This document shows positions 5,506 to 28,574 of a stretch of DNA of 36,256 nucleotides, in pieces. The stretch spans positions 4,672 to 40,927 of the forward strand of contig LFRY01000082.1 of NCBI GenBank assembly GCA_001512995.1. Direction: 5' to 3'. How positions within the stretch are numbered: position 1 is the stretch's first letter; each line of letters starts with the position of its first letter. The stretch is from Acholeplasmatales bacterium DTU067. GTDB taxonomy: Bacteria > Bacillota_I > Bacilli_A > ML615J-28 > CAG-698. Made by a program: the position numbers and the translations under genes. The notes below the pieces were generated by a model. The model saw nothing but the letters and a program-made list of their open reading frames with translations, ran no database searches and was not told where the DNA came from.

Positions 5506-5520
5506 GTTCATCTTCCTTAT

Positions 5521-9475: not shown

Positions 9476-10934
9476 AATCAAAAATGTCCATCCGCCCGAC
9501 ATTTGCATCCTTTAAAGTGAAGCCCAGCATTTCCGCCATCGCCACGCCGAATTGCGGGACGAGATATTCCTTCTCCTCAAGGCCGATTTTTTTGACCCTG
9601 TAACCCCAAACGATTCCGTAAATATGCCTGGAGCTGTCAAGTATCGTATCGTGCTGTCCGCGCACGGCATAGTTTCCAGAGGGGTTTTCCCTGCCGTGGA
9701 AATGATATCTTTCGCTCGGAATCACCAGCAAATCCACATTCGCGCCCCGCCAATATCCCTGCTGAAGCAATTCCTTCTTGGTCAGCACGGCCTGGACATA
9801 CTCTTCCTTAAGCAATTCCCGCTTGATGCTTTCCAATTCATTTTCCGTCACCGAACTGTCAAGAAAGGTAAGTTGCATCTGCAATCCGACGCCGACGCCG
9901 ACGATGGTTGTTGAAGGGGATGGTTTTTCTCCCGGACCAAGGTATTCGAAAACATAATCCTTGTTGATGCTTTTCAGTTTGTCGCGAAGAGCCGGCCATT
10001 TCGAATGGCTGTATTTACTGAAGAGGGATTCCAAAATACTTGGAGCGCCGAAGGGAGTCATCCCGTGGTCGGTGGTCAGGAAAAAAGTTGTTTTCTCATA
10101 AATGCCACGATCCTTGTATGCCTGGATCAGCTCCGCCAGTTTTTGATCGATGGTTTCCAAGGCAGCCAGGACATTATTTAACCTTCCGTTTTCGGTGCTT
10201 GCTTTTTTATATCCGTACGCGTCTTTTTCATTATGCCCCAACGCATCCAAATCATCGCAATAGATGGTTAAGAAACGCGGAACTTCTTCAAGCCGCATCG
10301 GACTTGTTCCGTTTTGGAAGGAATTGCCCCTGACCAGTTTTATCGCCTGATCAAATCTCGCGGCCGCATCCGCTTCCGTCCCGCTCGGTTCTGTCACATA
10401 GAGACGGGTGGGATCGGTCGGAGAAAAAACGGATTCGGCGGGGAAATGCCGCACGGAGACCGAAGGTATCCCCAATTCGACTGCTTTGTCATACAAGGTT
10501 TCCGCTTTGTTTTCCCTGCCCTGCTGGACGACGATGTTGTTGAGACGGTCGTAATAACGGTAAACATTTTGGGTTTTTCCGGAGGTCGCGCCGGAAATGA
10601 TCATTGCCTGATTGGGATTGGTGATCGACGGCGGCAAATTATACAAGTTTTCAAACATCACGCCTTCCTGAATTAGTTTCCGCAAAGTCTGCACGCCGCC
10701 CCTTTTCACCGCTTCGTCATAATAGTATTTCGCAAACCCGTCCAGATTGATGTAGACGACATAATTGTCGGAATCCCCTGGCTCTCCGGGAACTGACGGG
10801 TCGTCAATGGGATCTTCCGGATCCTCGGTTCCGTTTTCCCCAGGATCGTCGATTGGCTCTTTCGGTTTTTCGGGAACCGTACAGCCGACCAAAAGCAGGA
10901 AAAAGGAAAGTAAACAGATCAAATATTTACGCAT
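9474..10934 (-). CDS. Lipoprotein type I phosphodiesterase/nucleotide pyrophosphatase-like (PDE1)
   Basis: Alkaline-phosphatase-superfamily hydrolase of the phosphodiesterase/NPP type (PF01663-like), predicted to cleave phosphodiester or pyrophosphate bonds outside the cell. 486 residues: signal peptide with lipobox LVGC (Cys18), a Pro/Asp/Glu-rich linker (19-57), then the catalytic domain. The metal and catalytic set is complete: Asp65 (INLDGF), nucleophile Thr105 in SITNPNQ, Asp230 and His234 (DALGH), Asp289-His290 (TTDHGM) and His428 (RGQHDT). GGAGG lies 6 bases before ATG 10934. It is the last gene of the 14-gene run, 92 bases after the LTD lipoprotein, with a hairpin between. It is a full-length paralogue of PDE2 at the other end of the locus. 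Substrate (nucleotides, teichoic or glycan phosphodiesters) cannot be read from sequence. Confidence 0.9.
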   Translation of the reverse strand: MRKYLICLLSFFLLLVGCTVPEKPKEPIDDPGENGTEDPEDPIDDPSVPGEPGDSDNYVVYINLDGFAKYYYDEAVKRGGVQTLRKLIQEGVMFENLYNLPPSITNPNQAMIISGATSGKTQNVYRYYDRLNNIVVQQGRENKAETLYDKAVELGIPSVSVRHFPAESVFSPTDPTRLYVTEPSGTEADAAARFDQAIKLVRGNSFQNGTSPMRLEEVPRFLTIYCDDLDALGHNEKDAYGYKKASTENGRLNNVLAALETIDQKLAELIQAYKDRGIYEKTTFFLTTDHGMTPFGAPSILESLFSKYSHSKWPALRDKLKSINKDYVFEYLGPGEKPSPSTTIVGVGVGLQMQLTFLDSSVTENELESIKRELLKEEYVQAVLTKKELLQQGYWRGANVDLLVIPSERYHFHGRENPSGNYAVRGQHDTILDSSRHIYGIVWGYRVKKIGLEEKEYLVPQFGVAMAEMLGFTLKDANVGRMDIFD

Positions 10935-12799: not shown

Positions 12800-12822
12800 A
12801 ATTTTCAACCTCCCTTTAAATA

Positions 12823-13410
12823 TTATTGATCATTGTGTAAGTCGAATTTGATGACCACGGTCCCTGCCAACAAATCATGGAGGGAACGGGAATCCTTGCG
12901 GAACAAAACCAAAAACATGGACACTATGTGGGGCAGGATCAGCATCGTTTCCAATAAGCCCTTGCCGACAAATTCCCTGAAGATCAGGCGGGAAGCTGAG
13001 ATTTCCTCCAAATTGGAGCGGTTGACCGCTCCGATGCCGGCGAACATTTTGCCGACGGTCTGCCCCCTCCCGATCAGGGCCGGAGCGAGGGAAAAATAAG
13101 CTGTCTTGATGAAAATCCAGTAAAGAAAAATCTTCAGGTAGAGTTGCCAGAGCAAATCGCGGAACTGCAGAAACAATTCCAGATCCGTGAAATCGGATTC
13201 GTTCAGGCCGATGCTCTCCACAAAAAGTTCAATTTCCTTAAACAGATGCCGCGTCGCCAGATACCAGATGACAACGACGAACAGCAAATCGACCAGATAA
13301 GCCAGGAAGCGGCGCAACGGGCTTGCCGTCTCAAAGCTCACCCTTTCAATCAGGTCTTCCGTGAAATCAATGACATTGCCGACGATATCCCTAATTTCTT
13401 TTTCTTCCAT
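12823..13410 (-). CDS. RDD-family membrane protein
   Basis: 195 residues with the RDD pattern: SPLRRFLAYLVDLLFVVVIW (about 30-50, Arg in the first helix, Asp at its end), a second helix (about 90-115), GQTVGKMFAGIGAV (about 125-138), a third hydrophobic segment and SRSLHDLLAGTVVI near the end. RDD proteins are integral membrane proteins of mostly unknown role; some act in ion exchange. AGGTGA lies 7 bases before ATG 13410. It is 8 bases after the metallophosphoesterase gene and directly upstream of LTD2, so it belongs to the locus. It could be an accessory for the neighbouring surface proteins, but nothing in the sequence shows this. Confidence 0.88.
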   Translation of the reverse strand: MEEKEIRDIVGNVIDFTEDLIERVSFETASPLRRFLAYLVDLLFVVVIWYLATRHLFKEIELFVESIGLNESDFTDLELFLQFRDLLWQLYLKIFLYWIFIKTAYFSLAPALIGRGQTVGKMFAGIGAVNRSNLEEISASRLIFREFVGKGLLETMLILPHIVSMFLVLFRKDSRSLHDLLAGTVVIKFDLHNDQ

Positions 13411-13418
13411 GGAATCAC

Positions 13419-15749
13419 CTATCCGAAGTAATCAGTCAATATTCCGTACCCTCTTCCCTGCAAATCGAAGGCATAATGGAATTCCAGGGTCTCACGGTAA
13501 TGGTCGCTGTCTTCGCTCAAAAACAAATCAGAATCCCGGTAGTATGGTGAATATAATCCGAAAAGGAGCAGATTGTTTCGAAAATCAAAATCAATCGTCC
13601 TGAAAAATGTCGCTCCGTAGAGATCTTCTTCCTCCTGGAAATTTGTGAGGAGCTGCAGAACCCGGCGGTCGGCAATGCCGTCCCCGTCGTCGTCCAAGTA
13701 GTCAATGAGTTTTGCGGAACCGTTGAGATGGCCGCTGAAAACAAATTTTACATTCCCATACTCCTTGACAAGTTCCGAGAAGACCTTTTCGCCCGTGGGT
13801 GTCCGCGTTCCGTTTGCCCGCAGGTATTCATGGGTAGCCAAAATCACCGTGCAATCAGGATGCGCATCAAGGACCGCTTTTGCCCAAGCGATGTCCTGCG
13901 AGGAAACATGGACGTAGGGGAACGAAGACCCCCAGCCCAGATAAAGAATCAGGAACGGATGCCCGTCGACTGTTAACAGGTCATAGTGGCTCCGGTTGTT
14001 CTGGAAGGATTCGCCGTAATGGGGAAAATCCTTAAAAACGTCCTCCCCCAGATAATCCCAAAAATAATCGTAAACCAATTCGGAATCGAGAGCATTAACC
14101 CCTTTCGGATGGTAGGAAGAGATGGCCCCCACATCGTGGTTCCCGCTGGAGACGCCCAGCGGAAGCCCCGAAGCAAGCAAGGGATCGAGGAAATGCGTTC
14201 TGACATTTTCCCATTCGGAAAGGGTCACACCCCGCTGTTGCTGCACGAAATCACCGGTCATGAGGAAATAACGGAGTTTTTCAGTTTCATGTTCCCAAAG
14301 CAAATATTGAACCATGGCATCAAAAGCCGCCTTGGCTTTCTTCCAAACAGCAGAATCTTTCTCGGAAAGGCTGAGCATTTGCGTGATGTATTGGAAGTCC
14401 GTGCCATGGATCAGCCGATCGCTGAAGGAGATTCCGGAAAAATCGGTAAAGGCGGAAGAGATGCGGACATAAACTGCATCTTCAAAAAGATATTTTTCTT
14501 CCCCCAAATAATCATAAGCCAAGGTGAGCGTTTCTCCGGACGCCCTGGCCGTGGAGACGGTCTCCCAGAGGTTTTCTTCAAAATTATAAAGCTGCATGAA
14601 GGCCGTCCGACCTTCATTGGCCTTTCCCTTCCAAACCAGGGCTGTTTTTTTGCCCCTTTCAACAACAAAACTTATCACTGGAGCTTCAGAAAAAGGCGTC
14701 CTGTCATAGTTTCCGTCCGTTTCCAGAAAAGCCGAGATGTCGGAAAGTTCCGCGCCCAGATCTTCAAGCGTGGCGGATGGGGAAGCCGCGACTCCCGTTT
14801 TATAAACCCTGTAACTTAGCTTCCCTGAAACTTCCGGCTTGCCCGTGAGCGAGAAACTCAAGGTTTTTGTTTTTTCAAACCCGTGTTCGTTTCTGGCTCT
14901 GATTTCCAAATCATGCGTTCCTTCGGACCAGGCATGCCTGGAAAAAGTCAGGTTCGGGGGGATGGGGATTCCGTCCATTTTCACTTCGAACCATTCCGCA
15001 TCCGCCGTGACTTGAAGCTTTTTGGTTTCGGAAATCACCTCGCCGTCATTGATGTTGCAGTCAATGCCGATGTGGGCTTCGTTTTTGATTTTATGAATCC
15101 TGTTTCCGGAAACTATCTCCAATTCTTCCCCTTCAAAATCTTCCAGAACTGCGCCGTATTTTTTGAGCAGTTTCTCATCCACATGAAAGGTGAAACTCAC
15201 GCTTTCCCGAAAATTCGAACGCAGGTCCTGATTCATGCCGTTTTCCCCGAGATTGATCGGTTCGTTGAAATACTCCGCTTCCGGATACTCCTCTGACCAG
15301 AATTCTTTGCCCGCAACTTGGATCCTGACATTTCTGATGCTGAAGGTATTGAGGTTTTCGGACAGGTATCTTCCTGCCTTGAAGGTGATTTCCAGTTTTC
15401 CGGAAACAATGTTCGGCCCGATGAGCGCAATCTCGTTGGAGATAAAGTTTTTATGGCTGTATCTTCCCGCCTTTAGGGGAAGAACCGCGTAGCCGTTAAT
15501 GATGATTTGGTTTTCATAATTGTTGTCCAGGTTTCTGCTCTCAAAGAGGATTTTAACCTGTTCCGAAGTGGTCCGATAAACAGGAACCGTTTTGCCGTTG
15601 ACGGTGATTTCTTCGGTTTCCCTGACGATGATTCCCATTTGCCCATTCCCGTATAGGGCTTGAACGCGCGCGGGTTTGAGAATCAGCCAAAGGCCCGCGC
15701 CGATGATGATGATTACGCAAAGCGCGATTGCCAACAGTTTCTTTTTCAT
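13419..15749 (-). CDS. Membrane-anchored metallophosphoesterase with altered metal ligands
   Basis: 776 residues. An N-terminal anchor helix (about 4-25, no lipobox) is followed by ~400 residues of beta-rich sequence, including an Ig-like stretch (about 255-310), and then a calcineurin-like phosphoesterase domain (about 440-690). Motifs: Asp451 in HGTDFQ, Asp500 in TGDFVQ, Asn537-His538-Asp539 in SGNHDV, His640 in ATHEYL and His674 in SGHLNG. The canonical DxH reads Asp-Phe-Gln and the canonical GHxH reads Gly-His-Leu-Asn, so both histidines that normally bind the first metal are replaced. Most of the protein should be outside the cell. It starts 7 bases after LTD1 without a strong ribosome site, suggesting coupling. 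It could be a single-metal or non-standard phosphodiesterase; substrate unknown. Confidence 0.87.
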   Translation of the reverse strand: MKKKLLAIALCVIIIIGAGLWLILKPARVQALYGNGQMGIIVRETEEITVNGKTVPVYRTTSEQVKILFESRNLDNNYENQIIINGYAVLPLKAGRYSHKNFISNEIALIGPNIVSGKLEITFKAGRYLSENLNTFSIRNVRIQVAGKEFWSEEYPEAEYFNEPINLGENGMNQDLRSNFRESVSFTFHVDEKLLKKYGAVLEDFEGEELEIVSGNRIHKIKNEAHIGIDCNINDGEVISETKKLQVTADAEWFEVKMDGIPIPPNLTFSRHAWSEGTHDLEIRARNEHGFEKTKTLSFSLTGKPEVSGKLSYRVYKTGVAASPSATLEDLGAELSDISAFLETDGNYDRTPFSEAPVISFVVERGKKTALVWKGKANEGRTAFMQLYNFEENLWETVSTARASGETLTLAYDYLGEEKYLFEDAVYVRISSAFTDFSGISFSDRLIHGTDFQYITQMLSLSEKDSAVWKKAKAAFDAMVQYLLWEHETEKLRYFLMTGDFVQQQRGVTLSEWENVRTHFLDPLLASGLPLGVSSGNHDVGAISSYHPKGVNALDSELVYDYFWDYLGEDVFKDFPHYGESFQNNRSHYDLLTVDGHPFLILYLGWGSSFPYVHVSSQDIAWAKAVLDAHPDCTVILATHEYLRANGTRTPTGEKVFSELVKEYGNVKFVFSGHLNGSAKLIDYLDDDGDGIADRRVLQLLTNFQEEEDLYGATFFRTIDFDFRNNLLLFGLYSPYYRDSDLFLSEDSDHYRETLEFHYAFDLQGRGYGILTDYFG

Positions 15750-15756
15750 GGTGCAA

Positions 15757-17148
15757 TCACGGCCTTGTGAGGTTGATCTTCTTTATTTTGTCCGGGGCTG
15801 CGGAGCTCAAACGGCCCTCGCTTTCCACCTCGTCAGCCCTCCAATTGATGAGTTTCAATCCGAGCGCGGGATCCGTCTTCAGTTTTATCGTCTTTTTTAC
15901 AAACCTATACTCAATCACGTCCTCAGTTGAAAAACGCATCAATTCGAACTGATCCCTTTTCATGTACTCTTCATATTTGGAATATTCGCGGAGGGGTAGC
16001 TGCCATTGCATGATCCTTTCGCCGATCCGGGGCGGGCGGAACTGCAAGCCCACGGTGTTGTCCCAACCGAGCACGCCGGGATTGGAAGTCGCTCCGAAGT
16101 CAACATATGTCTGACCGGGCGCCATTCCCGCGGGATTGACGCGACCGCAGAAATTGATACGGACGATCGGATCAAAGTACTTCCAACAGTTCTCATAATA
16201 ATAGGCATCCACGACTTCCCCGCCGTCCCTGATTTCCATGACATTGAAGCATTTCTTTCCGTAAACGGGATCGGGGTTTTCCTGTTTTTCCGCAGGCAGT
16301 TCGGAGTATTTATTCAAAAGGCTGATTTCCGCGCTGCCGCCCTGGTCATTGAATTTTTGGATTTCCAGGGATCTGAGGAGGCTGCTGTTCAAATGCGTGT
16401 ACATCGTTCCCGAGGCGGGAGTGTAAATCGGAAAGAGCTCTTCGGTTCCTCCTTCGGTTCTTCTGCCGACCAAGCCCATGTTCGTGAGCTCATAAACCGG
16501 GATGTCTGAATCGAGATGCCAAAAGGCGCGGAAATCGTCCACTGTTTGTGAGAAAGCACCTTTTTTATCCGTGTCTTTATGGATCAGGACCGCGCTGAAA
16601 GGTTTGTTGTAAGCATTGGAACCGCAGCCGGCAGTCCAAAAATAGGGCTTCAGCCAAATCAGAGCTGTTGAAAGGCTCGGGATGATGAAATCCTCGTCAA
16701 TCAGTCCCATGAAGAGAAAGCCGGTGCACAGAGCTTCGTTCCCGACCTTCACGTCCGGGTTTTCCGCATTTTGCCCCTGCGTGGTGTTGCAGAGGACGAC
16801 GCGGTGCCCTTTCAGGTTATAGTCGGAGAGGGTGTTGTTAAAGACTTTGAGGTATTCGTACGCGGACATGGTTTCGTAATGGTAGTAATGATAGGTGTCA
16901 AGCACAACTTCCAAAATAAGGAGTTCCGGAGCATCCTCAACAACCGCCAGCGCATCCGCATCCTCCAAGAGTTCCGTCGAAGGCAGTTGGATTTCGAGAT
17001 CATAGATTTTCTCTTCCGGTTCCCCGTTGCCGTTTTCGCCGTTATTGTTCTCATCACCGTTCTCGTTACCTCCGTTATTCGGGGTATCGACATTGTTGCA
17101 TCCCGCGAGCAGCAGAATCAATAAGAGCATGAGGAGTAGCTTTTTCAT
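15757..17148 (-). CDS. Lamin-tail-domain lipoprotein (LTD1)
   Basis: 463 residues: signal peptide with lipobox LAGC (Cys17), an Asn/Gly/Glu-rich linker (18-47), then a lamin tail domain (about 73-200, LLILEVVLDTYHYYHYE, YLKVFNNTLSDYNLKGHRVV) and a C-terminal region resembling LTD2 (DDFRAFW, LEIQKF). It lacks the cysteine stalk and Ig-like domain of LTD2, so the two are paralogues with different surface linkers. AAGGAG precedes ATG 17148, and the start overlaps the MocA stop by 4 bases (ATGA). No catalytic motif was recognised; a binding role on the outer face of the membrane is the likeliest reading. Confidence 0.82.
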   Translation of the reverse strand: MKKLLLMLLLILLLAGCNNVDTPNNGGNENGDENNNGENGNGEPEEKIYDLEIQLPSTELLEDADALAVVEDAPELLILEVVLDTYHYYHYETMSAYEYLKVFNNTLSDYNLKGHRVVLCNTTQGQNAENPDVKVGNEALCTGFLFMGLIDEDFIIPSLSTALIWLKPYFWTAGCGSNAYNKPFSAVLIHKDTDKKGAFSQTVDDFRAFWHLDSDIPVYELTNMGLVGRRTEGGTEELFPIYTPASGTMYTHLNSSLLRSLEIQKFNDQGGSAEISLLNKYSELPAEKQENPDPVYGKKCFNVMEIRDGGEVVDAYYYENCWKYFDPIVRINFCGRVNPAGMAPGQTYVDFGATSNPGVLGWDNTVGLQFRPPRIGERIMQWQLPLREYSKYEEYMKRDQFELMRFSTEDVIEYRFVKKTIKLKTDPALGLKLINWRADEVESEGRLSSAAPDKIKKINLTRP

Positions 17149-18419
17149 TGTTCGCTCCTTTCGTTGAGAAATCTCTTGAGTTCAATCATTTCGCCTCCCC
17201 TGAGGCGGGATTCTTCCGCAGCAAAAGCCATCGCATGGCTTTCGATGGACATCGGCAATGTGGAAGCGAAGGATTTGCCGTGGAGGTAGGTTTCCATGAA
17301 GTTTTTCATGAACGCCGTGTCGGCGCCACCGTGCCCCCCTGCCAGCGTTTCGGTTCTAATGACTTCTTTTTCGGAGCTGCCGAAATAAGTGATTTCGATT
17401 TCTTTTTTCGTCTCGATGGCGCGGATTTCCCCGTATTCGCACATCACCTTCAAAGAACGGTGGATTTTATCGGTGAAGGCGCTGATATTGAAGGTGGCGT
17501 GCACTCCGCCTTCAAACTCGAGGATTGTGACCTGATGGTCGGGCACGTTGTTGTCGCAATTGAAGACGCAGCGTCCGTAAAGGCTGGTTTCCAGATCCTT
17601 CTTTAGGGCTTCCGCGGAAGAGTCGTCAAAAACGACGCTTCTGATTTTTCCGCTCGAATAAATTTTCAGCGCCGAATAAGGGCAGGAGCTTTCGATTGAG
17701 CAATCCACGCAGCGCGGAGCCATCCGTTCTTCGTCGTAATTATTGCGGGTGAAAAAGTTCAGGCTGCCCATGGAAGCTAGTTTAAGGCAATGCTTATCCC
17801 CCAGCAAATAAAGGAGAATATCAAAATCATGGCAACTTTTGGCGACCGCCAGGGGAGCTGCGATTTCCGTATTCCGCCAATTTCCCCGCACATAGGAATG
17901 GGCGAAATGGTAATAGCCGATGTTTTCGTTGTGCTGGATGTCAATGACATTGCCCAGCTTTTTTTCAGAAATAATTTCTTTGATTTTTCGGAAGAAGGGC
18001 GAATGGCGGAGCACATGGCAGACCGCGACCAATTGATTGGGATGCTTATCTCCCAGGCGCCCGATTTCCAACACTTCCTCAAGCGAAACGGCAATCGGTT
18101 TTTCCAGAATCAGATCATAGCCTTTTTCAAGCGCGGAAATTGCCGGCAGATAGTGCATGTTGTCGAGAGTAGCGATGATGACAACGTCGGAGAGCCGGGG
18201 GAGTTTGCTGAATTCTTCGTGGCTGTCAAAAATCATGTCATCGGGAATGCCGTACTTCTTCTTGTAAAGTTCCTGCTGTTCTTTTCTTGGTTCCGCGACC
18301 GCCACGACCTCAAATCCATCCGGATAGTTTTCTTCCAGCGCCCGGAGGTAGCCCCCCGCGCGGCTTCCGGCGCCGACGATGCTGAAGGTGACTTTGTCGA
18401 CTTTTTTTGTCATTCTCAC
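17145..18419 (-). CDS. Gfo/Idh/MocA-family NAD(P)-dependent oxidoreductase
   Basis: Sugar dehydrogenase or epimerising oxidoreductase of the cytoplasm, about 424 residues. Rossmann motif VGAGSRAGGY (15-24), EKP motif (106-108) with the usual catalytic Lys107, and a second-domain motif CHDFD (His197, Asp200). An extra cysteine group (Cys237, Cys240, Cys246 in RCVDCSIESSCPYSA) may hold a metal. Start: GTG 18419 has GGGTGG 6 bases upstream; ATG 18413 is the alternative. It follows the binding lipoprotein gene and overlaps LTD1, which places it in sugar catabolism of the locus. Substrate not predictable; a role on the imported glycan is inferred from context. Confidence 0.88.
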   Translation of the reverse strand: MRMTKKVDKVTFSIVGAGSRAGGYLRALEENYPDGFEVVAVAEPRKEQQELYKKKYGIPDDMIFDSHEEFSKLPRLSDVVIIATLDNMHYLPAISALEKGYDLILEKPIAVSLEEVLEIGRLGDKHPNQLVAVCHVLRHSPFFRKIKEIISEKKLGNVIDIQHNENIGYYHFAHSYVRGNWRNTEIAAPLAVAKSCHDFDILLYLLGDKHCLKLASMGSLNFFTRNNYDEERMAPRCVDCSIESSCPYSALKIYSSGKIRSVVFDDSSAEALKKDLETSLYGRCVFNCDNNVPDHQVTILEFEGGVHATFNISAFTDKIHRSLKVMCEYGEIRAIETKKEIEITYFGSSEKEVIRTETLAGGHGGADTAFMKNFMETYLHGKSFASTLPMSIESHAMAFAAEESRLRGGEMIELKRFLNERSEQ

Positions 18420-18422: not shown

Positions 18423-19853
18423 TTACCACCCGTTGGTGTCGAGAATGTATTGGACGCGGTCGGCGCATTCATCAAGTACGGCTTCGATATCCCTTGTGCA
18501 GTCGTCGTAATATATGCCCTTCACGTATTTCGAAAAATCATCGTCCGCCAGAGCTTTCGCGCGTCCCACGGGGATTTTCAGATCGCCCTGGGGAGCAAAT
18601 ACCATCAGCGAAATGACACGGTCCAGCAAGGGGTTGATTTCGGAATAATCCTTCCAAAGCTGGGTTTCGGTTGCGGCTCTTGTGCTGGGAAGATAGCCGG
18701 TGTTGATTGAAAAATAGGCAGTCTGTTCGGGGGCTTGCAACCAGCGCAGGAATTCGATCGCCGCTTGGATTTTGCTTTCCGATTTGTTGTTAAAGACGAT
18801 CAGAGCGCCCCCGCTTTGATTGGAGTAGAAATTGCTGTCTTTCGGGAAGGGAAGGACGTCGATTTCGAAAAGGGGCTCCTCCCCCTGTTCCACTCTGCTT
18901 TCATGGATGTTTTCGTACAGGCTTTTGATTATGGATGAGGTGTTCCAAAGCAACCCCACTTTCCCTTCAACAAACTTCCCCTGAATCTTTGTTCCGTGAT
19001 TGGGGTCGAGCACGGGATTCAGCATGTTCCCCTCAACCACCAAACTGCGCCAATAATTCAAAGCTTTGACTCCGGCTTCGTTATTGAAGAGGACTTCGGT
19101 TGCCGTTTCATTGTAAATCGGAAGGCCCTGCGTGTAAAAGGACTCGTAGAGCGCCGGACCGTTTGCAGCCAAACCGTAGACATCCTCATCTTCCGCCTGT
19201 TCGCTGATTTTCTTGGTGAGTTCTTTCATGTAATCCCAGGTCCAGATGGAATTCTCAGGATCGGCGATGATTTCATCGACCGTCGGCACGTGCATGCCCG
19301 TGGATTCAGCCAGGGTGCGATTGACCATAAAGATATTCGTAGAGGCATAGAAAGGATAGCCGATGAATTTATGCCTGTACATGGCAAACTGGAGAAAACC
19401 TTCGTAGAAGTCGCGGATCTCATCATAAGTGAAGATTTCCCGCATGTCGACGGTGTTGTCCAGGTAGAGGGCAAGGGAGGAAACGCCGACCATGGCTATT
19501 TCCGGATTGGTTTTGCCGATCAGGGCAGCTTGAAGCTTGGTGTTTTGGGTGATGTAGCCCCCCTGGAAGGAGATGTTCACCTTGATGTAGGAATCGGGAT
19601 AGGTCTCCTTTTGGTAGGCGTTGAAGCGGTCCACCAAATCCGCCTGGACGACGCCGTGGAGGTCGACTGCGGAGTTGGCCGACCAGAATTCGATTTCCAC
19701 AGGTTTCGTGAGCAGATGCTCACGGGGATAGATTTCCCATTCCTTATCAACAAAAATTTCGCCGTTGTCAGTAATCTCTTCAATGTCTTCGCAGCCCGCG
19801 AGCATAACCAAAACGGTAAAAAATGCGCAGAGGAGAAGAAAATATCTTTTCAT
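18423..19853 (-). CDS. ABC transporter sugar-binding lipoprotein (family 1 extracellular solute-binding)
   Basis: Substrate-capture component of the ABC importer, held at the outer membrane face by a lipid. Lipobox MLAGC after a 20-residue signal. The binding fold starts with PVEIEFWSANSA, continues with KLQAALIGKTNPEIAMVGVS, and has typical C-lobe pieces (AIEFLRWLQAPEQ). About 476 residues, somewhat long for the UgpB/MalE group. ATG 19853 is preferred (AAGGAAAGG 8 bases upstream); GTG 19862, overlapping the permease stop, is possible. Overall it looks more UgpB-like than MalE-like, so a sugar-phosphate or glycerophospho-compound is a possible ligand, but this is weak evidence. Confidence 0.92.
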   Translation of the reverse strand: MKRYFLLLCAFFTVLVMLAGCEDIEEITDNGEIFVDKEWEIYPREHLLTKPVEIEFWSANSAVDLHGVVQADLVDRFNAYQKETYPDSYIKVNISFQGGYITQNTKLQAALIGKTNPEIAMVGVSSLALYLDNTVDMREIFTYDEIRDFYEGFLQFAMYRHKFIGYPFYASTNIFMVNRTLAESTGMHVPTVDEIIADPENSIWTWDYMKELTKKISEQAEDEDVYGLAANGPALYESFYTQGLPIYNETATEVLFNNEAGVKALNYWRSLVVEGNMLNPVLDPNHGTKIQGKFVEGKVGLLWNTSSIIKSLYENIHESRVEQGEEPLFEIDVLPFPKDSNFYSNQSGGALIVFNNKSESKIQAAIEFLRWLQAPEQTAYFSINTGYLPSTRAATETQLWKDYSEINPLLDRVISLMVFAPQGDLKIPVGRAKALADDDFSKYVKGIYYDDCTRDIEAVLDECADRVQYILDTNGW

Positions 19854-19858
19854 CTTTT

Positions 19859-20893
19859 TCACCTTTCCTTGATGGCGTAATTTACGTCTGATTTGTTTAA
19901 TTTCTTTATAATTGCTCTGAACCCGCGTTTGAGCAGGGAGCCTTTTTTGCTTCCGGCGAATTCGATCTTCCTGCCGCCGATCATCGCCCGCTTCATCTGT
20001 TGGTTACCGAAAATATACATCAGAAGAATCGGCGCAAGCTGCATCACGTTTCCGGCCATGACCAAATGCCAGGGGGGAAGGACGCCTTCCGCTTTGAGCA
20101 AACCCCTGACCGCCACCGGCAGGGTTTTCAGTTTCTCGCTGTTGGTCATGACGAGAACCCAATAGTAGGAATTCCAATTGGAGATGAAAGTCAGCAAGAA
20201 ATGGGTGATGAAAATCGGGAAGATCATAGGTACCATGATTTTAAGCATGATCGTCCGGTTTTTGGCTTTGTCGAGAACCGCGGATTCGATGATTTCCTTG
20301 GGGATGGTTTTGAAATTGTTCATAAACAGGTAAATCCCGAACATTGAGAAAAGGGAAGGCAGAACCAAACCCGTCCAGGTATCGACCAGTCCCATTTTGG
20401 AATAAAAGAAATAAACCGGTATGAGAGTCGCTTCGCCGGGAAGCATCATCCCCAGTTGCTTGAGGTAGAAGAGGAATTTATTGCCTTTGAACTTCATTCT
20501 GGCAAATGCGTAGGCCGCGGGGACTATGAAGAAATATTGCAGTCCCAATACCAATGCCGCGTAGGTCACGGAATTGCCGAGATAAGTACTGAAGCGGGCC
20601 CTGTTCCAAGCCTGGATGTAATTTTCCCAATGCCATTCGTTCACCCAAAGGCCGGGCGAGAAGAGAACGGCTTCCTCATAGCTCCTGACCGACATCAAAA
20701 ACATCCAGACAAAGGGATAGACGAAGGTCAAACCCACGGCAATCATTGCCAGATAATTGATGATTTTGAGAATGTATTTGACTCTCTTGACGATTCTGAT
20801 TCTTCGTTCCTGTTTGGGCGTGAGCTCACTGATTACGGGAGAATAGGAAAAAGCCTCTTCCCTTTCAACATCAAATATTTTTTTGAAATCCAT
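19859..20893 (-). CDS. Sugar ABC transporter permease (MalG/UgpE type)
   Basis: Second membrane subunit of the importer. 344 residues: a charged cytoplasmic N-terminus of ~40 residues, six predicted helices (first about 50-70, LAMIAVGLTFVYPFVWMFLM), and the EAA coupling loop EIIESAVLDKAKNRTIMLKIMVP that docks to the ATPase. The C-terminal tail is extended and basic (RGFRAIIKKLNKSD). It is 15 bases after the coiled-coil permease and immediately before the binding lipoprotein, giving a complete importer in one operon. Confidence 0.94.
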   Translation of the reverse strand: MDFKKIFDVEREEAFSYSPVISELTPKQERRIRIVKRVKYILKIINYLAMIAVGLTFVYPFVWMFLMSVRSYEEAVLFSPGLWVNEWHWENYIQAWNRARFSTYLGNSVTYAALVLGLQYFFIVPAAYAFARMKFKGNKFLFYLKQLGMMLPGEATLIPVYFFYSKMGLVDTWTGLVLPSLFSMFGIYLFMNNFKTIPKEIIESAVLDKAKNRTIMLKIMVPMIFPIFITHFLLTFISNWNSYYWVLVMTNSEKLKTLPVAVRGLLKAEGVLPPWHLVMAGNVMQLAPILLMYIFGNQQMKRAMIGGRKIEFAGSKKGSLLKRGFRAIIKKLNKSDVNYAIKER

Positions 20894-20908: not shown

Positions 20909-22678
20909 CTAATAATTAATGGCTTTTTCCACAACTCTATCAAAATACAAGTTCTTCAACAACGTGCAAACCGCAATCATTAAAGTCAGGATGATTGCTC
21001 CGGCCATGGCGGTTCCGTAATTGAAACCAATCCTTCCGACCTTGTAAATCCAGTAGCTCAGGACCATTGAAGACCCCATCGGGCCCCCGTTGGTCATAAT
21101 CTCAATCGGAGCAAAAACTTTGAAGGAATTGATGAACTTGGTCAGAAAGACAAAGGACATCGTCGGCGCCAGGAGCGGCAGGGTGATTTTGAAGAAAGTC
21201 GTGGTTTTGCCGGCTTTGTCCAAAAGGGCAGCTTCGTACACATAGGCAGGAATGCCCTGGAGGCCCGAAATAATTATCAGCACATAATAACCTATGTCCT
21301 TCCAAACCGTGACCAGGGATACCGAAAAGAGGGATGTGTTTTCCTGCAAGAGCCAGGCGGGACCCTTGATTCCGAAGAGGGCGAGGAATTGGTTGATGAT
21401 TCCCGTCGGATTGAGCATCGCGATCCAGAGGATGGAAATCGAAACCAAGGAAGCGATGTGGGGCGTGAAGACCATCGTCTGCGTAAGATTGTGGATTCTC
21501 GTGTTCTTCGCCAACCAGGCCGCCATTCCGACCGTGACAACAGTCAGGAGCACGATCGTAATCAAAGCATAGATAGCCGTGTTTCCCAGGGCTTTCTGGA
21601 ACTCGGTGTCCTTCGTGAAGATGTTTATGAAATTGGAAAGACCCACGAAGCGCGATCTACGCATGTTTGCAAAATCAATCCTGAAGAAGGAGCCCACAAT
21701 CATGAAGATGAAGGGCAGCAAAGTGAAGAGCACCGCCCCCAGAAATGCCGGGGCAACATAGATGTAAGCGGGATTGATTCTCTTGAAGATTTTTGCTTCC
21801 AAACTGTCCATGCGCTTGAGCTTCCGCAGGCGAAAATCCTCTCTGATATATTTTTGCAGTTGTTTGTAGAGATTTCTTTCCTCGGGAGACATCCGCCTCA
21901 CTGTTTCCCGCGCTTCCAGCCTGATTTCCTTGATTTTTGCTTGCGCGTCCTTTTTTACATTAAGATAATCCAAATAAAGTTTTCTGACCTTGTCCGCATC
22001 CCGCGCTTGCTTTTCCCGCATCAGCTTCCGCTCGGCTTCAATCCGGGCGTTGAGGCCGGCTATCAGAGCAAGTTTTTCTTTCTTGAATTCCTTTTTTGGA
22101 GTCTGGCGGTGTTCATTCAAGAGGGTATTTTTTTCTTTTTCATAATCACCGTTGAGTTCAATCAATCTGTTCCGGTAATCAGCAAGAATTCTGAGGCGCG
22201 CCTCCTCCTGTTCCCTGAGTCTCCTTTCGAGCTCCGCCGCCCGGTATTTCTGAAATTTCGTTTCGAATTCACGGAGTTTGCTTTTCGCTTCCGGGTGGCC
22301 CTTTTTAATTGCCGCCAAAAATTCTTTTTTTGCTTTCCGGTAGTTGGCGTCAATTTTTGCCATGACCAAAGCGACGTGCTGCTTGCTCTCTTTGAGGATG
22401 AAATTCTTGTTTTCTTTCAGTTCGGAAACCCGGTTCCGATGTTCGCGGCGGAGTTTCCGCATTTCATCTCGAAAATCCCGGCGGCGCCCTTTCAACAGCG
22501 CTTTTTGGAGGTTGCGTTCCGCCACCAAATCCTTGGTTTGCTCATTGAAGTGCAGACGATGCTTGTATTTTTCGGAAAGAAACAAATCCTTCGCTGCATC
22601 AATTCTGTCCAACTGAGCAAAGATTTGCTTTTGGACGATGCGGTTATAGCTGGTTTCCAAATGCTCTAAAGGATTCAT
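20909..22678 (-). CDS. Sugar ABC transporter permease (MalF/UgpA type) with ~300-residue coiled-coil N-terminal extension
   Basis: First membrane subunit of the importer, 589 residues against the usual ~300. Residues 1 to about 300 are highly charged and alanine/leucine-spaced with no hydrophobic helix (EFETKFQKYRAAELERRLRE, ARIEAERKLMREKQARDADK), predicted as a long cytoplasmic coiled coil. The permease then begins at INPAYIYVAPAF (about 302), with six helices and an EAA loop (AYVYEAALLDKAGKTTTFFKITLP). One open frame covers both parts. ATG 22678 has GAGG just upstream, and the gene overlaps the ATPase by 35 bases. The extension is on the ATPase side of the membrane and could regulate coupling, scaffold the cytoplasmic enzymes or tether the importer; I know no standard domain for it. 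Confidence 0.9.
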   Translation of the reverse strand: MNPLEHLETSYNRIVQKQIFAQLDRIDAAKDLFLSEKYKHRLHFNEQTKDLVAERNLQKALLKGRRRDFRDEMRKLRREHRNRVSELKENKNFILKESKQHVALVMAKIDANYRKAKKEFLAAIKKGHPEAKSKLREFETKFQKYRAAELERRLREQEEARLRILADYRNRLIELNGDYEKEKNTLLNEHRQTPKKEFKKEKLALIAGLNARIEAERKLMREKQARDADKVRKLYLDYLNVKKDAQAKIKEIRLEARETVRRMSPEERNLYKQLQKYIREDFRLRKLKRMDSLEAKIFKRINPAYIYVAPAFLGAVLFTLLPFIFMIVGSFFRIDFANMRRSRFVGLSNFINIFTKDTEFQKALGNTAIYALITIVLLTVVTVGMAAWLAKNTRIHNLTQTMVFTPHIASLVSISILWIAMLNPTGIINQFLALFGIKGPAWLLQENTSLFSVSLVTVWKDIGYYVLIIISGLQGIPAYVYEAALLDKAGKTTTFFKITLPLLAPTMSFVFLTKFINSFKVFAPIEIMTNGGPMGSSMVLSYWIYKVGRIGFNYGTAMAGAIILTLMIAVCTLLKNLYFDRVVEKAINY

Positions 22679-23735
22679 AAACCTCAGCCACCTCCCTTTC
22701 GCCGTAGATTCTTTTTTCTTTCTCGTCGAAAGCGTAGGCGTTTTTCCGTTTCAAAATAATTTCCGCAGATTCGCCGATCGCCTTCATCCTGCGGTCGGAA
22801 TCCTTAATGTAAATTTTTCCGATGCCGATGTCCACATAGTATAAGAATTCCGAACCATGGTTTTCTATTGCCAGTATTTTGCCGCGGATTATGCAATCGT
22901 CCGTTTTTGGGACATTTTCTTCGTTTACAAAATTTATGTTCCTTGGCCTGAAGCCAATTTTTTTTCCGTTTTCAAGTGTAATGACGTTCATCCCGGGGTC
23001 GCCGATGAATTGCGCAACAAAAACGCAATTCGGCTCGTCGTAAATCTCAAGCGGCGTTCCGACCTGTTCGACGACGCCCTCATTCATCACCACGATGTTG
23101 TCGCCCATGGTCATCGCTTCGACCTGGTCATGGGTGACATAGACAAAGGTTGACTCCAAGGACTCATGGATCTGAATCAGTTCCGTCCGCATCGAGGATC
23201 TCAGCTTCGCGTCCAGATTGGACAGGGGTTCGTCCATCAAAAATACCTTCGGTTTTTTTGCTACGGCCCGCGCCAGGGCGACGCGCTGCCTTTGCCCGCC
23301 GGAGAGATTGGCGGGGCGCCGGTGGGCATACTCCTCTAAATTCACCAGTTTCAGGACTTCTTTGATCCGACGGCTGATTTCATAACTCGGCATGCGTGCG
23401 TTTTTCAAACCGAATTCGATGTTCTTCCAAACCGTCATGTGCGGGTAAAGGGCATAGGATTGAAAGACCATGGCGATGCCGCGGTCGCCTGGAGGGATGT
23501 TGGTGATGTCGACATCGTCGAGCTTGATGGTTCCCAAAGTGATGCTTTCCAGTCCGGCAATCATCCTGAGCAAAGTCGTCTTTCCGCAGCCCGAGGGCCC
23601 GACCAAAACCGTGAAACTCCGCTCGGGAATGACCATCGAAACGTTATTTACCGCCCGCACCCCTTCCGGCAACAGCCCTTTCCTTTTGGGTTCGCCGTAG
23701 ATTTTCGTAATGTGGTTGAGTTCAATCCTCGACAT
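22644..23735 (-). CDS. Sugar ABC transporter ATPase (MsmX/UgpC type)
   Basis: Energises the importer. 363 residues: Walker A GPSGCGKTT (46-54), Q-loop FQSYALYPH, signature LSGGQRQR, Walker B VFLMDEP, H-loop VTHDQVEA, and a C-terminal TOBE-like regulatory part (about 235-350, GFRPRNINF). GGAGG lies 6 bases before ATG 23735. It overlaps ChbG by 14 bases and the coiled-coil permease by 35. Unlike many Firmicutes that share one distant MsmX, this locus carries its own ATPase, which may be needed for the unusual permease. Confidence 0.95.
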   Translation of the reverse strand: MSRIELNHITKIYGEPKRKGLLPEGVRAVNNVSMVIPERSFTVLVGPSGCGKTTLLRMIAGLESITLGTIKLDDVDITNIPPGDRGIAMVFQSYALYPHMTVWKNIEFGLKNARMPSYEISRRIKEVLKLVNLEEYAHRRPANLSGGQRQRVALARAVAKKPKVFLMDEPLSNLDAKLRSSMRTELIQIHESLESTFVYVTHDQVEAMTMGDNIVVMNEGVVEQVGTPLEIYDEPNCVFVAQFIGDPGMNVITLENGKKIGFRPRNINFVNEENVPKTDDCIIRGKILAIENHGSEFLYYVDIGIGKIYIKDSDRRMKAIGESAEIILKRKNAYAFDEKEKRIYGEREVAEVYESFRAFGNQL

Positions 23736-24474
23736 ATCTTGCCTCCGTGTAATTTGTTAATTCTATCCGATGGATGGCCAGCAAGTTTTTGATCCTCGCG
23801 CTGGTCAGGACTTTCAGTTCAATCAAGCGTTCGCGGTTGTATGAAGAATTCTTCATCAAAAAAGCATCGAGAAAAGCCGGATGAACCATCATCTCAGCAT
23901 ATTCCAAGGCAGCCAAATCCCTGATGCGGGCTTCAAACCTCCTGAAAAGCGCTTCTTTCGTCTCGAATTTTCCGACCTTGAACCAGGGAAGAAAGGGGAT
24001 GGGTGGAAACCCGTCTATGATCATCCCGCGGACGGGTAGCTTCTTTTCCAGCGCGAATTCCCGGATCGCTTCTCCCACAGTCCTGTAAACCTGGTGCGCA
24101 TAGAGGTGCGTATCCAAATGTGATGGAGGCTTCCCAAATTTCCGGATGAATTCATTGTACTGCGCTTGAAATTCCTGTTTGATTTCCTCTTTTTTAAACA
24201 GGGACTCGTCGGGTTTGTCTTTCGGTTTATAAAAAAGCCCGCCTTTCTTGGTTAAACTGGGAACGGAAGCAAGGGGCTTCCCGCAGGTGATGTTCAAATG
24301 CAGGCCGATGGCTAAGCGGGGGTGGAAACGGGCGATTCCCACGGCATGGTCGATGGACGGCATCGTGACCATCGCGGAGGTGGAGGTGACGATGCCCGAC
24401 CTGTGCGCTTCAATGATCCCAAGGTTCACTCCGTCGGAATACCCGAAGTCGTCGGCATTGACTATCAGCTTCAT
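23722..24474 (-). CDS. YdjC/ChbG-family carbohydrate deacetylase
   Basis: Metal-dependent deacetylase family; the E. coli member ChbG removes one acetyl group from chitobiose-type sugars, including phosphorylated ones. About 250 residues. Motifs: NADDFG (6-11, metal Asp residues), IGLHLNIT, SHLDTHLYAH and EMMVHPAFLD. ATG 24474 overlaps the GH4 stop as ATGA, so it is preferred over ATG 24489. Its place between a GH4 6-phospho-glycosidase and an ABC ATPase suggests it acts on the same imported sugar, perhaps an N-acetylated and phosphorylated oligosaccharide (inference). Confidence 0.92.
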   Translation of the reverse strand: MKLIVNADDFGYSDGVNLGIIEAHRSGIVTSTSAMVTMPSIDHAVGIARFHPRLAIGLHLNITCGKPLASVPSLTKKGGLFYKPKDKPDESLFKKEEIKQEFQAQYNEFIRKFGKPPSHLDTHLYAHQVYRTVGEAIREFALEKKLPVRGMIIDGFPPIPFLPWFKVGKFETKEALFRRFEARIRDLAALEYAEMMVHPAFLDAFLMKNSSYNRERLIELKVLTSARIKNLLAIHRIELTNYTEARYVED

Positions 24475-25814
24475 TTTAGCACCGGCCAATAATCCTTGTT
24501 GGCGATAATCAGTTCGTCAAGGATTTTTTTTGCTAGTTCCATGTCAATGATGGTGCGGTTCAAAGTCAGGGCCTGGAGAGCTTTTAAATAACTCCCTTCA
24601 AAATAAGCATCGCAGGTCAACTTTTCATATGCATATTGCTGTTCGATCAAGCCCTTATGATAAGTTCCGATTTTTCCGACCGGAAGCGGCTTCGGGCCTT
24701 CTTTTCCGAGCTCGCAAACCACTTCCACAATCGCTTCTTCCGGCAAATTGGGAATCACGCCCCTGTTTTTCACCATCATCACATAATGCCGCCCCTGATC
24801 ATGAAGGATCGCTTCCGCTATCTCCAAAATCATTTCCCCATGCGCATCTTCTTTGTTCATTTCCTTTTCGACCAAAGCACTAACCCTGATTGTTCCGGAA
24901 CTGATGACGCGTTCGCATTCCGAAAAGACACGCTTTTCGCGCCCGTCCATCACTTCGTTGGCGCGCGTGTATTCAGGATTTAAGTGGGAAAGCGTTCTTC
25001 TCGGAAGCAAATAATACTGGAGATAAGTATTCGGCAGATACGTCGGGTCAAGTTCCAACATGTGGCGCACCGTTTCATAGGTGACGAGCCAGGAGGGGTC
25101 CCGGCTTTCCTTGTCGGCGGGATAAAACCCTTCTTCAAGGATCTTTTGCTTGATTTTCTCCGTCAAGTCTTCGTTGTTGTTTTTATTGATTATCTTGGTA
25201 AACCAGCCGAAATGATTCAAACCGAAATAATGGGGAATCATGTCCTGGTATTTAATGTTTCCGAGCAGGCGCGCGTAAGCCATCATGAGACTGATCGGCT
25301 GGTCGCAGATGTTGAGGATTCTTTTTTCATTGGGGAAGGCCATGTCCAGAGCGAGGGCGACGATGGCCGCAGGATTTGTATAATTGATGATCCAGGCCCT
25401 TGGTGAATGGATTCTGATTTCTTCAACCAGGCGGATCATGTCCCCGATCGAGCGCATTCCGTAAGCGAAACCGCCGGCGCCGCAGGTCTCCTGGCCGATG
25501 GCGCCGTTTCTTAGAGGAATCTTTTCGTCGAGTTCGCGCATTTTGAAACCGCCGGTCCTGATCTGGCAAAAAACGAAGTCCATGTCCTTGAAGGCGGTTT
25601 CTTTGTCAGCGGTATATATCACTTCCAACTCGGGATAATATTCTTTCATCAAAAGGAGGGCATATTTGCCCATCTTTTCCAATCGCTCAGCGTCGATGTC
25701 ATAGAGGACGAGTTTTTTTAGCGGGAAACTCTTCTTCTTCTTGATCATCCCCACCAAAATTCCCGGCGTGTAGGTGCTCCCGCCGCCGGCAATGCAGACA
25801 CGCAGTTTTTCCAT
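24471..25814 (-). CDS. GH4 6-phospho-alpha-glucosidase-like enzyme
   Basis: NAD- and metal-dependent glycosidase acting by oxidation and elimination. 447 residues, normal for GlvA. Dinucleotide motif GGGSTYTPG (11-19), NYTNPAA (144-150), NICDQP with Cys170 and Asp171, and GLNHFGW with His201. These match the metal Cys171/His202 and catalytic Asp172 of B. subtilis GlvA, and Tyr264 matches its Tyr265. Asp after the cysteine points to the alpha (CDMP-type) rather than the beta (CNVP-type) subgroup. GGAGATGATAGG precedes ATG 25814, 32 bases after PDE2. GH4 phospho-glycosidases usually serve PTS systems, yet an ABC importer is encoded here, so the substrate may already carry phosphate or a kinase may act elsewhere. 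Confidence 0.93.
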   Translation of the reverse strand: MEKLRVCIAGGGSTYTPGILVGMIKKKKSFPLKKLVLYDIDAERLEKMGKYALLLMKEYYPELEVIYTADKETAFKDMDFVFCQIRTGGFKMRELDEKIPLRNGAIGQETCGAGGFAYGMRSIGDMIRLVEEIRIHSPRAWIINYTNPAAIVALALDMAFPNEKRILNICDQPISLMMAYARLLGNIKYQDMIPHYFGLNHFGWFTKIINKNNNEDLTEKIKQKILEEGFYPADKESRDPSWLVTYETVRHMLELDPTYLPNTYLQYYLLPRRTLSHLNPEYTRANEVMDGREKRVFSECERVISSGTIRVSALVEKEMNKEDAHGEMILEIAEAILHDQGRHYVMMVKNRGVIPNLPEEAIVEVVCELGKEGPKPLPVGKIGTYHKGLIEQQYAYEKLTCDAYFEGSYLKALQALTLNRTIIDMELAKKILDELIIANKDYWPVLK

Positions 25815-25846: not shown

Positions 25847-27304
25847 TTATTTTTCGAACACGTCCAAGACTATGCCGTTGGCGTTGGGAATCACTAGTCC
25901 CAAAGCCGCCGCCATGGTTGTTCCGAAATCAAAGTTGTAAGCCCTATTTTGATAGACATAGTTTTTCTTGATTCCCTTCCCCCAAATGACACCGAAAACA
26001 TGATTCGAACTGTCGAGCAGGGAATCGTGCTGCCCGCGGGCAACATATTGCATGAAATAATTGGAACTGAAAACATATCTGTCCGCCGGGGTGATGATCA
26101 TGTCAGCGGCGCCTTCCATGTAGCCCATGGCTTTCAGATCTTCGCGGATAAGGACCTTACCGACAAAGTGGAGTTTTGCAAGTTCCGTGCGTAGGGCTTC
26201 AAGCTCTTCGTCGCTGATTCCCTGCTTCCAAGTGAGTTGCAGGTTCAGGTTCGCTCCGACGGCCACTACATCCGTTCTCGGTTTTGGGGAGGAACCGGGC
26301 GCGACCATTTCCAAAACATGTCCGTGGTTTTGGAAGAATGTCTGCAGGTCCCCCAATTTGGAAGTCCCGTAATCACCGCTGTCGTCCAGCGACTTCAGGC
26401 CATAGGGAGTCATGCCATGATCGGTCGTGAGGAAGAAAGTCATCCGCTCGTAAATCCCGGCGTCCTTGCAAGCCTGGATGAATTCGCCGAGCTCTTGGTC
26501 CATTTCCTCGAGCCTGGCGAGAACATTTTCCATCCTGCCCGCTTCGGTCTCCGCGCGCCTGATGCCGTAGGCATCCTCAAAATTATGCCCCAGAGCATCC
26601 AAGTCATCGGCGTAGAAAACAATCAGGCGCGGCAGCTCTTCAACTGTGACTTGATTTCCCCCGACATGCACGCTCTCCCCCTTAACAAGCCTTTTCAGTT
26701 GCGTGAAGCGGGCAAAGTAATCATTCGCCTGCCCCCTTTGGATGATTTCGGGAAGGTTTGGGTCAGAGGTGATGTAATAGGTTTTATCCTGTTTCAGCAC
26801 GGTTTCCAAAAGATAGTGGGAAACGCTGGCGACGCTCAATCCGGCTTCCACCGCGACATGGGCAATGGTTTTGTTTGCGTTTTCTCGCTCTTGCTGGATG
26901 ACGGTATTGATCGTCCTGTCATAGTAGCGGTAAACATTCCTCGTAATTTCGGAAGTGGATCCCGAAAGGATCATGTTCTGGCAAGGATTTGTGATTGAAG
27001 GCAGCGTCGTCCGCAGATCCTCAAAAAAGACACCCTCGCTGATGACCTGCCGCAGAACGGGCAGGGCATCGGGATTTTTTTCTAGCAATTCGTCAAAATA
27101 ATAACGGGCAAAACCGTCCCAATTGATGTAGACTACATAAGCGTTTTCTACCATGGCTACTCCTTCCTGATAATCCGGCGCATTTTCGCGTCCGCGGATG
27201 CTGTATTCGTTCTTCGGTTCCGGCTCCGGTTCATCCTGGTGCGGTTTGCATCCCGGAAAGATTAGAAATGACAAGACTATGAGCATCAGAAATATTTTCT
27301 TCAT
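25847..27304 (-). CDS. Lipoprotein type I phosphodiesterase/nucleotide pyrophosphatase-like (PDE2)
   Basis: Paralogue of PDE1, about 485 residues. ATG 27304 (GGAGTGG upstream) starts a clean signal peptide with lipobox FPGC (Cys19); the longer frame to 27340 has no such start. Glu/Pro-rich linker, then the catalytic domain: Asp63 (INWDGF), Thr105 in SITNPCQ, DALGH, TTDHGM and RGQHDS. The asparagine that normally follows Pro in the nucleophile loop is Cys108 here, but Asn in PDE1. It is the first gene after RpiR, behind a promoter and a 14-base inverted repeat, and 32 bases before GH4. The two phosphodiesterases thus bracket the structural genes and may take different substrates. Confidence 0.9.
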   Translation of the reverse strand: MKKIFLMLIVLSFLIFPGCKPHQDEPEPEPKNEYSIRGRENAPDYQEGVAMVENAYVVYINWDGFARYYFDELLEKNPDALPVLRQVISEGVFFEDLRTTLPSITNPCQNMILSGSTSEITRNVYRYYDRTINTVIQQERENANKTIAHVAVEAGLSVASVSHYLLETVLKQDKTYYITSDPNLPEIIQRGQANDYFARFTQLKRLVKGESVHVGGNQVTVEELPRLIVFYADDLDALGHNFEDAYGIRRAETEAGRMENVLARLEEMDQELGEFIQACKDAGIYERMTFFLTTDHGMTPYGLKSLDDSGDYGTSKLGDLQTFFQNHGHVLEMVAPGSSPKPRTDVVAVGANLNLQLTWKQGISDEELEALRTELAKLHFVGKVLIREDLKAMGYMEGAADMIITPADRYVFSSNYFMQYVARGQHDSLLDSSNHVFGVIWGKGIKKNYVYQNRAYNFDFGTTMAAALGLVIPNANGIVLDVFEK

Positions 27305-27327
27305 AAACCACTCCGATAAAATGAAAA

Positions 27328-27392
27328 TAAGTATAATCAAATTGCCAGGCGCTTCAAGGCAGCGCTTTCACTCCGCACTTTGATTATACTTA
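27328..27392. promoter_or_regulatory. Perfect 14-base inverted repeat, candidate RpiR operator pair
   Basis: Arms TAAGTATAATCAAA (27328-27341) and TTTGATTATACTTA (27379-27392) with a 37-base spacer. The right arm contains the -10 box of the PDE2 promoter; the left arm lies in the 5' leader. Arm centres are 51 bases apart, close to five helical turns. Confidence 0.6.
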
Positions 27393-27508: not shown

Positions 27509-28270
27509 CTAATCCGTTTTGGTTTTTTGGTTGACATAGGTTGTGATGATGATGTTGAGGATGAAGAGAATGGGAAGCCGCGAGGAGATGTCCTGTCTGT
27601 TACTGCAGGCTTCTTCACTGGAGATGGAAAAATTATAATCCCCGATTTTGGACAATTCGTTCCCGGTGTTGGATGAAATCGTGACGACCGTCGCCCTCCT
27701 GCTTTTCGCAATCTGCGCCATGCGCACAACCTGATGCGTGTTCCCGCTCAAGCTGCAGGCAAAAAGGAGGTCGTTTTCGGTCATCGATTCCGCCACCAAA
27801 TAAGCGATGTGCGTGTCCTTATAGATGAAATTGGCGCGGTTGTAGGTCAGCAATTGCTTGGACGCATATTCAAGAACCGTCGCGGTCAAACCCTTCCCGA
27901 AGAAATGGATGTTTGTGGGTTTGAGCATCAGTTCCACGATTTTCAGGATCTTCTTCTCGTCCAACATCGCCGCCGTTTCCACAATCGCCTTCACGTTCTG
28001 ATCCAAAGTGTCCGTAAACGTGGCGTCCCGGTGGGCTTTTTCCATTTGGCTGAGCTCTTCCCTAATGTGGAATTTGAGTTCGGTGAACCCGGAATAGCCC
28101 AGTTTCTTGCATAACCTCATCACGGTCGCCGTCGAAACAAAGGTCGTTTCCGCAAGCTTCTTGACGCTTAAACTCAAGACGAGTTTGCGATTGTTCTGAA
28201 TGAAACGCAAAACATCCAATTCGGAAATGGTAAGAGAATTGATTGTGTCGATGCTGATACTGGAAAGCAT
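27509..28270 (-). CDS. RpiR-family transcriptional regulator
   Basis: Sugar-phosphate-sensing regulator. About 253 residues: N-terminal HTH_6 domain (about 1-75, LAETTFVSTATVMRLCKKLGYSGF) and a SIS sugar-phosphate domain (about 100-235, IHFFGKGLTATVLEYASKQL, LLFACSLSGNTHQV). ATG 28270 is chosen because GGGGGG lies 4 bases upstream; the frame extends to a TTG at 28297 without a ribosome site. It is transcribed in the same direction as the locus but separated from PDE2 by 204 bases holding a promoter and the inverted repeat. A phosphorylated sugar effector fits the GH4 enzyme downstream. Divergent from pflB. Confidence 0.9.
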   Translation of the reverse strand: MLSSISIDTINSLTISELDVLRFIQNNRKLVLSLSVKKLAETTFVSTATVMRLCKKLGYSGFTELKFHIREELSQMEKAHRDATFTDTLDQNVKAIVETAAMLDEKKILKIVELMLKPTNIHFFGKGLTATVLEYASKQLLTYNRANFIYKDTHIAYLVAESMTENDLLFACSLSGNTHQVVRMAQIAKSRRATVVTISSNTGNELSKIGDYNFSISSEEACSNRQDISSRLPILFILNIIITTYVNQKTKTD

Positions 28271-28574
28271 TTTTCCCCCCATCATGTGGTTGATCAATGT
28301 TTGTTATATTAAGACAAATTAATAAATAAAAAAACTAAGGCATCAGTTGTGTGCCAAGGAAAATGGGGAACGGCATAAATAAATGTTCCGTAAACTTTAA
28401 TTATATTATACAACCAAGCACTGTAATTTGCAATGGATTTCCGAAAACGATAAAGCGCGGTTCGATGGAATCCATGACAAGCACAGGTCAAAAATCCCTT
28501 CTAAAGAAGATGCTTTTCGCCAAAAATATGCAACCAAAAATAGGAAGTTTTTCTTAAGCAAATAAAGGCAAAAA

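Follow-up and report, generated by a model that had tools for sequence, protein, structure and literature searches.

The 36,256-nt stretch of DNA analyzed here (hereafter the window), from Acholeplasmatales bacterium DTU067, a member of the Acholeplasma group that lacks a cell wall, encodes on its minus strand (20909-22678) a stop-free frame in which about 300 charged, helical residues are followed by a six-helix MalF/UgpA-type permease. Judged from its sequence, this 589-aa protein serves as the F-type subunit in a dedicated carbohydrate importer of the MalFGK2 kind. We tentatively read its N-terminal arm as a stalk or spacer, which is the leading interpretation although we hold it at somewhat less than even odds. 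The cytoplasmic N-terminus of the F-type permease would have become a long antiparallel helical hairpin of 11-residue (hendecad) repeats, projecting about 17 nm into the cytoplasm beyond the ATPase dimer. Like the b stalk of ATP synthase, it would serve mechanically as a stalk or spacer and set a constant distance between the importer and a partner, such as another importer, a pathway enzyme or some other cytoplasmic structure. The arm is not unique to the window: there are six other long forms as well as forms with a short version, and a second permease subfamily has similar arms; we found no description of a permease arm of this kind in the open-access literature searched.

The principal parts of the protein are:
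20909..22678, minus strand, permease with an N-terminal cytoplasmic arm, 589 aa (one ORF, ATG start)
21779..22678, minus strand, the extension, aa 1-300, a charged helical arm (no family match, hendecad period, pLDDT mostly about 90)
20912..21778, minus strand, six-TM MalF/UgpA-type permease domain, aa 301-589 (Pfam, Foldseek)
21179..21235, minus strand, EAA coupling loop, aa 482-500 (EAA motif at aa 482)

Matches to known families are confined to the C-terminal half. Pfam detects BPD_transp_1 on aa 388-577 (E 4.6e-13, 49.7 bits against a cut-off of 26.4), the nearest NCBIfam model is UgpA (aa 297-583, with a score far under its cut-off), and Foldseek matches the fold of the permease domain to the mycobacterial SugA (7cad_A, TM-score 0.84 by target length). 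Hydropathy gives six transmembrane segments, the first near aa 311 with 310 residues ahead of it. Hydropathy, Pfam and the ORF therefore agree with the original prediction of a MalF/UgpA permease with six helices and an EAA loop in one frame with an extension. The frame is kept in independent relatives, which rules out both a chance fusion and an assembly join. The protein shares with CUT1 permeases of the MalF/UgpA/SugA type (E. coli MalF, mycobacterial SugA) the BPD_transp_1 domain, six transmembrane segments, the EAA loop and an operon with a partner permease, ATPase and binding protein. It differs from them in its approximately 300 extra cytoplasmic N-terminal residues; a usual but non-defining trait of the class is a short cytoplasmic N-terminus or the MalF-type elaboration, E. 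coli MalF having extra transmembrane segments and a periplasmic loop instead.

Six loci (the window and L038-L042) have in common the order GH4, YdjC, ATPase, long permease, MalG-type permease, binding protein and Gfo/Idh oxidoreductase, and the dedicated ATPase originally noted for the locus is present as a MalK/UgpC-type gene of the same operon. The genes around the long permease are:
17145..18419, minus strand, Gfo/Idh/MocA oxidoreductase (Pfam; conserved neighbor)
18423..19862, minus strand, lipoprotein-type substrate-binding protein (Pfam)
19859..20893, minus strand, second permease, MalG/UgpE type (profile searches)
22644..23735, minus strand, MalK/UgpC-type ATPase, whose end overlaps the start of the long permease by 35 nt (profile searches)
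23722..24489, minus strand, YdjC/ChbG-type carbohydrate deacetylase (profile searches)
24471..25814, minus strand, GH4 glycosidase (profile searches)
25847..27340, minus strand, type I phosphodiesterase-like protein (Pfam)
27509..28297, minus strand, RpiR-family regulator with HTH_6 and SIS domains (Pfam)

The combination of GH4, a YdjC protein resembling chitin-disaccharide deacetylases, Gfo/Idh and RpiR suggests, on gene context, an N-acetylated or otherwise modified oligosaccharide as the substrate. The importer operon is flanked by two type I phosphodiesterase-like genes, at 9474-10934 and 25847-27340 (minus strand). Downstream of it (11027-17148, minus strand) lie genes for proteins of 593, 776 and 463 aa with no Pfam match and an RDD protein, and lipoprotein-like genes come after the operon in relatives also. 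An adjacent xylan/xylose cluster (1364-8329, minus strand) comprises GH3, part of a GH43, a LacI regulator, an FGGY kinase and xylose isomerase. In its GH43 gene (3453-4352, minus strand) the catalytic domain is reduced to its C-terminal end (profile positions 210-285 of 288), accompanied by GH43_C2, and the gene appears to be 5'-truncated.

The long form was recovered in seven records, with lengths of 585-711 aa (one record is cut by a contig end). Apart from the window these include, from a scan of named contigs, Acholeplasma granularum (598 aa) and Acholeplasmataceae MAGs (585, 593 and 711 aa and the one cut by its contig end), as well as a MAG labelled Clostridia (588 aa, counted from the shared start). 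Whole-genome searches added long forms in two further genomes (G037 and G341), which the comparison suggests are identical or very near to those of L039 and L038. At E below 1e-80, the only matches among 395 genomes of the class were these two, the window's own protein and three short forms, indicating that the subfamily of long and short permeases is rare. Across the seven long sequences compared, the arm diverges far more than the membrane part: the window and its closest relative are 36% identical in the arm and 82% in the membrane part, and the other pairs 23-28% and 72-83%, respectively. Blockwise identity dips slightly in the middle of the arm relative to its two ends, and codon position 2 differs in 39-53% of arm codons, which points to weak constraint. 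What the sequences indicate is kept is a length near 300, the charge (net +23 to +37 in every long-form arm) and the periodicity described below. Retention of length, charge and periodicity at 23-36% identity is as expected of a spacer, and it points to a stalk or spacer more than to a domain that binds and senses a ligand.

The weak constraint would also be compatible with drift. We regard it as rather improbable that the arm is a tolerated helical tail enlarged by largely neutral growth with little function. The fast divergence, the range of lengths from about 95 to 426 residues and the arms of varied length in a second permease subfamily would fit such an origin; however, five of the six complete long-form arms have 300-313 residues (the sixth has 426) despite their low identity, each with its periodicity kept, and small genomes tend to shed useless sequence.

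The extension itself (aa 1-300; 27% K+R, 17% D+E, net charge +32) yielded no match to a known domain in Pfam, NCBIfam or the sequences of the PDB. In six arms pooled, the hydrophobic residues recur with a period of 3.64 (3.66 in the window protein), their autocorrelation peaks at 11 and 22 with none at 14, 21 or 28, and the hendecad register reaches z = 18.2 as against 6.3 for the heptad. The same procedure returned 3.46-3.48 for GCN4, 3.40-3.42 for the RecN coil of the same genome and 3.66-3.72 for E. coli ATP-synthase b (a sequence agreeing letter for letter with PDB 6oqr); a b subunit sought as a control in the window's own genome was not found. A heptad coiled coil is ruled out, since the period is 3.64 and not 3.5, with the heptad controls at 3.40-3.48. 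Thus, of the cytoplasmic coiled coil originally proposed, the long charged helical arm stood and the heptad gave way to 11-residue repeats; its placement outside the usual permease family is borne out by the profile searches of aa 1-300 against Pfam and NCBIfam, and its placement on the ATPase side by the homology of the permease half, which makes it cytoplasmic.

An alternative with some bearing on these properties is that the arm is basic and amphipathic and places the importer by binding an acidic surface, the inner membrane leaflet or nucleic acid. The net positive charge of all long forms is in its favor, and an 11/3 period is also seen in surface-binding helices of the synuclein/perilipin kind. 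Nevertheless, the mean hydrophobicity of the arm is about 0, hydrophobic moments are modest in most 18-residue stretches and the predicted helix lengths and turns fit a hairpin pairing with itself, and we consider this alternative improbable.

For the stalk or spacer reading, the analogy is with the peripheral stalk of ATP synthase, where subunit b forms a hendecad (11/3) helical rod rising from a transmembrane helix (PMC6131620). The likeness is one of architecture: the window arm is predicted to be an intramolecular hairpin, whereas b is a b2 dimer, and the Pfam and NCBIfam searches of the window protein gave no ATP-synt_B match, indicating no sequence relation to b.

The hairpin emerges from an AlphaFold model of the window protein built on a 15-row alignment from which one plasmid-collection row was left out. 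The model has helices at aa 11-125, 130-192, 195-226, 228-261 and 265-300 followed by TM1 at 303-329; pLDDT is mostly about 90 in the arm, and the overall pTM is 0.44, too low for the model to fix how the arm is oriented to the membrane. Its elements are:
22304..22648, minus strand, outgoing helix, aa 11-125 (AlphaFold model)
22292..22303, minus strand, hairpin turn, aa 126-129 (AlphaFold model; orthologs are rich in G/P/N/D at about the same place in the alignment)
21896..22291, minus strand, returning helices, aa 130-261, with breaks at 193-194 and 227 (AlphaFold model)
21779..21886, minus strand, juxtamembrane helix, aa 265-300, common to long and short forms (model and alignment)

That the arm is part of a single chain, is helical, turns near aa 126-129 and joins TM1 through the helix common to the short forms is shown or strongly predicted; we infer its antiparallel packing from the helix lengths and turns. 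The predicted 115-residue helix would measure about 17 nm (115 x 0.15 nm). The model of the 711-aa ortholog (helices 3-134, 140-179, 184-225, 233-382 and 388-424; mean pLDDT 69.8) reads, with lower confidence, as the hairpin of the window protein tipped by an additional short one.

Two group-specific motifs in the partner proteins are candidate contact sites for the base of the arm:
20816..20848, minus strand, SYSPVISELTP, cytoplasmic N-terminal motif of the second permease (possible contact site)
23661..23696, minus strand, conserved GEPKRKGLLPEG insert preceding Walker A in the ATPase (possible contact site)

The first takes the form Y-x-P-x-I-x-x-L-T at the start of the second permease in all seven long-group loci and is absent from the short group. 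The second, GEPKRKG-LPEG ahead of Walker A, is found with minor changes in six of six long-group ATPases; the short group differs, and two other ATPases of the same genome (L067 and L072) lack the insert and have a short loop instead. Co-adaptation of the arm with its partners is hinted at by these motifs, which in the stalk or spacer reading may steady the arm base.

The same insert, lying near the nucleotide site, would also suit a regulatory arm, in which the hairpin folds on the ATPase dimer and gates its closure. This would be a permease-borne counterpart of the C-terminal regulatory domains of MetN and ModC. The juxtamembrane helix exits TM1 beside the ATPases, as such an arm would need; however, aa 1-300 lack a known domain, the sequence is highly variable for a precise binding surface and the length of the arm exceeds the depth of the ATPase dimer, and we judge regulation unlikely. 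Fused regulatory domains are a common theme among transporters, and the C2 domain of MetN and the C-terminal domain of ModC are precedents for an extra cytoplasmic part on an importer (PMC10710835). Those domains are globular, bind ligands and sit on the ATPase, whereas the window arm is a helical rod on the permease.

Short forms with about 95 residues ahead of an N-P-A-Y motif occur in L009, L010 and L011, of the same family, and in a Subdoligranulum variabile plasmid record (L065), whose gene content is again GH4, YdjC, ATPase, two permeases, binding protein and oxidoreductase. A tree of the membrane part unites all eleven proteins in one group (support 100/100) and places long and short forms to either side of a single branch (94/91). 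A juxtamembrane segment, L-S-x-E-E-x-x-x-Y ... IFKK[IVL]NPAYIY, is common to most of the long and short forms, and several have a loosely similar start, M-x-x-L ... Y-N. The start codon is conserved within the end of the ATPase gene, with overlaps of 23-35 nt in the long and short forms measured, and is preceded there by a probable ribosome-binding site:
22690..22696, minus strand, probable Shine-Dalgarno sequence GGGAGGT, inside the end of the ATPase gene (AGGT/GAGGT equally spaced in the long orthologs inspected)

The simplest reading of these sequences is that start and base stayed fixed while the arm between them either grew or shrank; the short forms presumably function without the long arm. 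It is very improbable that the frame yields two proteins through an internal start at Met263: this residue stands just before the segment common to the short forms and P0003 has a Met there too, but it is absent from P0002, P0004 and the short forms, and the first start codon is the conserved one. We accordingly rejected aa 263 as a start, its Met not being conserved across long and short forms.

A survey of large permease frames in the family revealed a second MalF-type subfamily (L093/L101) with a charged N-terminal part of 183 residues, whose relatives in the 395 genomes of the class have open frames of 310 to 494 aa. In five members (L101, L102, L104, L105 and L107) the N-terminal parts, of 98-194 residues, look helical and are for the most part basic, with a pooled period of 3.54. 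As in the window protein, these arms are charged and graded in length; they differ in belonging to a separate subfamily and in a period nearer the heptad. Helical permease arms thus seem to have arisen more than once. A broader proposition, which we hold to be possible but doubtful, is that, in relatives of Acholeplasma and in allied lineages, the permeases of carbohydrate ABC importers recurrently bear cytoplasmic helical stalks, a feature so far undescribed that would have arisen at least twice and would set the spacing of importers from one another or from pathway enzymes. The known extra parts of ABC importers are for the most part either ligand-binding domains attached to the ATPase or externally fused binding proteins; a permease rod that keeps its length but not its sequence would add a different, structural type to these. 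Short (95), long (300) and longer (426) arms form a natural series within a single conserved operon, so that the role of the rod can be tested.

Three other long permeases of the same genome are not of the arm type. One, a 776-aa frame on contig C66 (L003:1462-3792, minus strand), is an apparent fusion of a signal peptide and binding-protein-like part to a MalF-type permease. Another (L006:1450-3132, minus strand) is a MalF-type permease of 560 aa whose N-terminus is predicted to hold about four additional transmembrane segments. The third (L008:40-1932, plus strand), whose open frame runs past the locus, is a MalF-type permease with a long, non-basic and perhaps extracellular N-terminal part.
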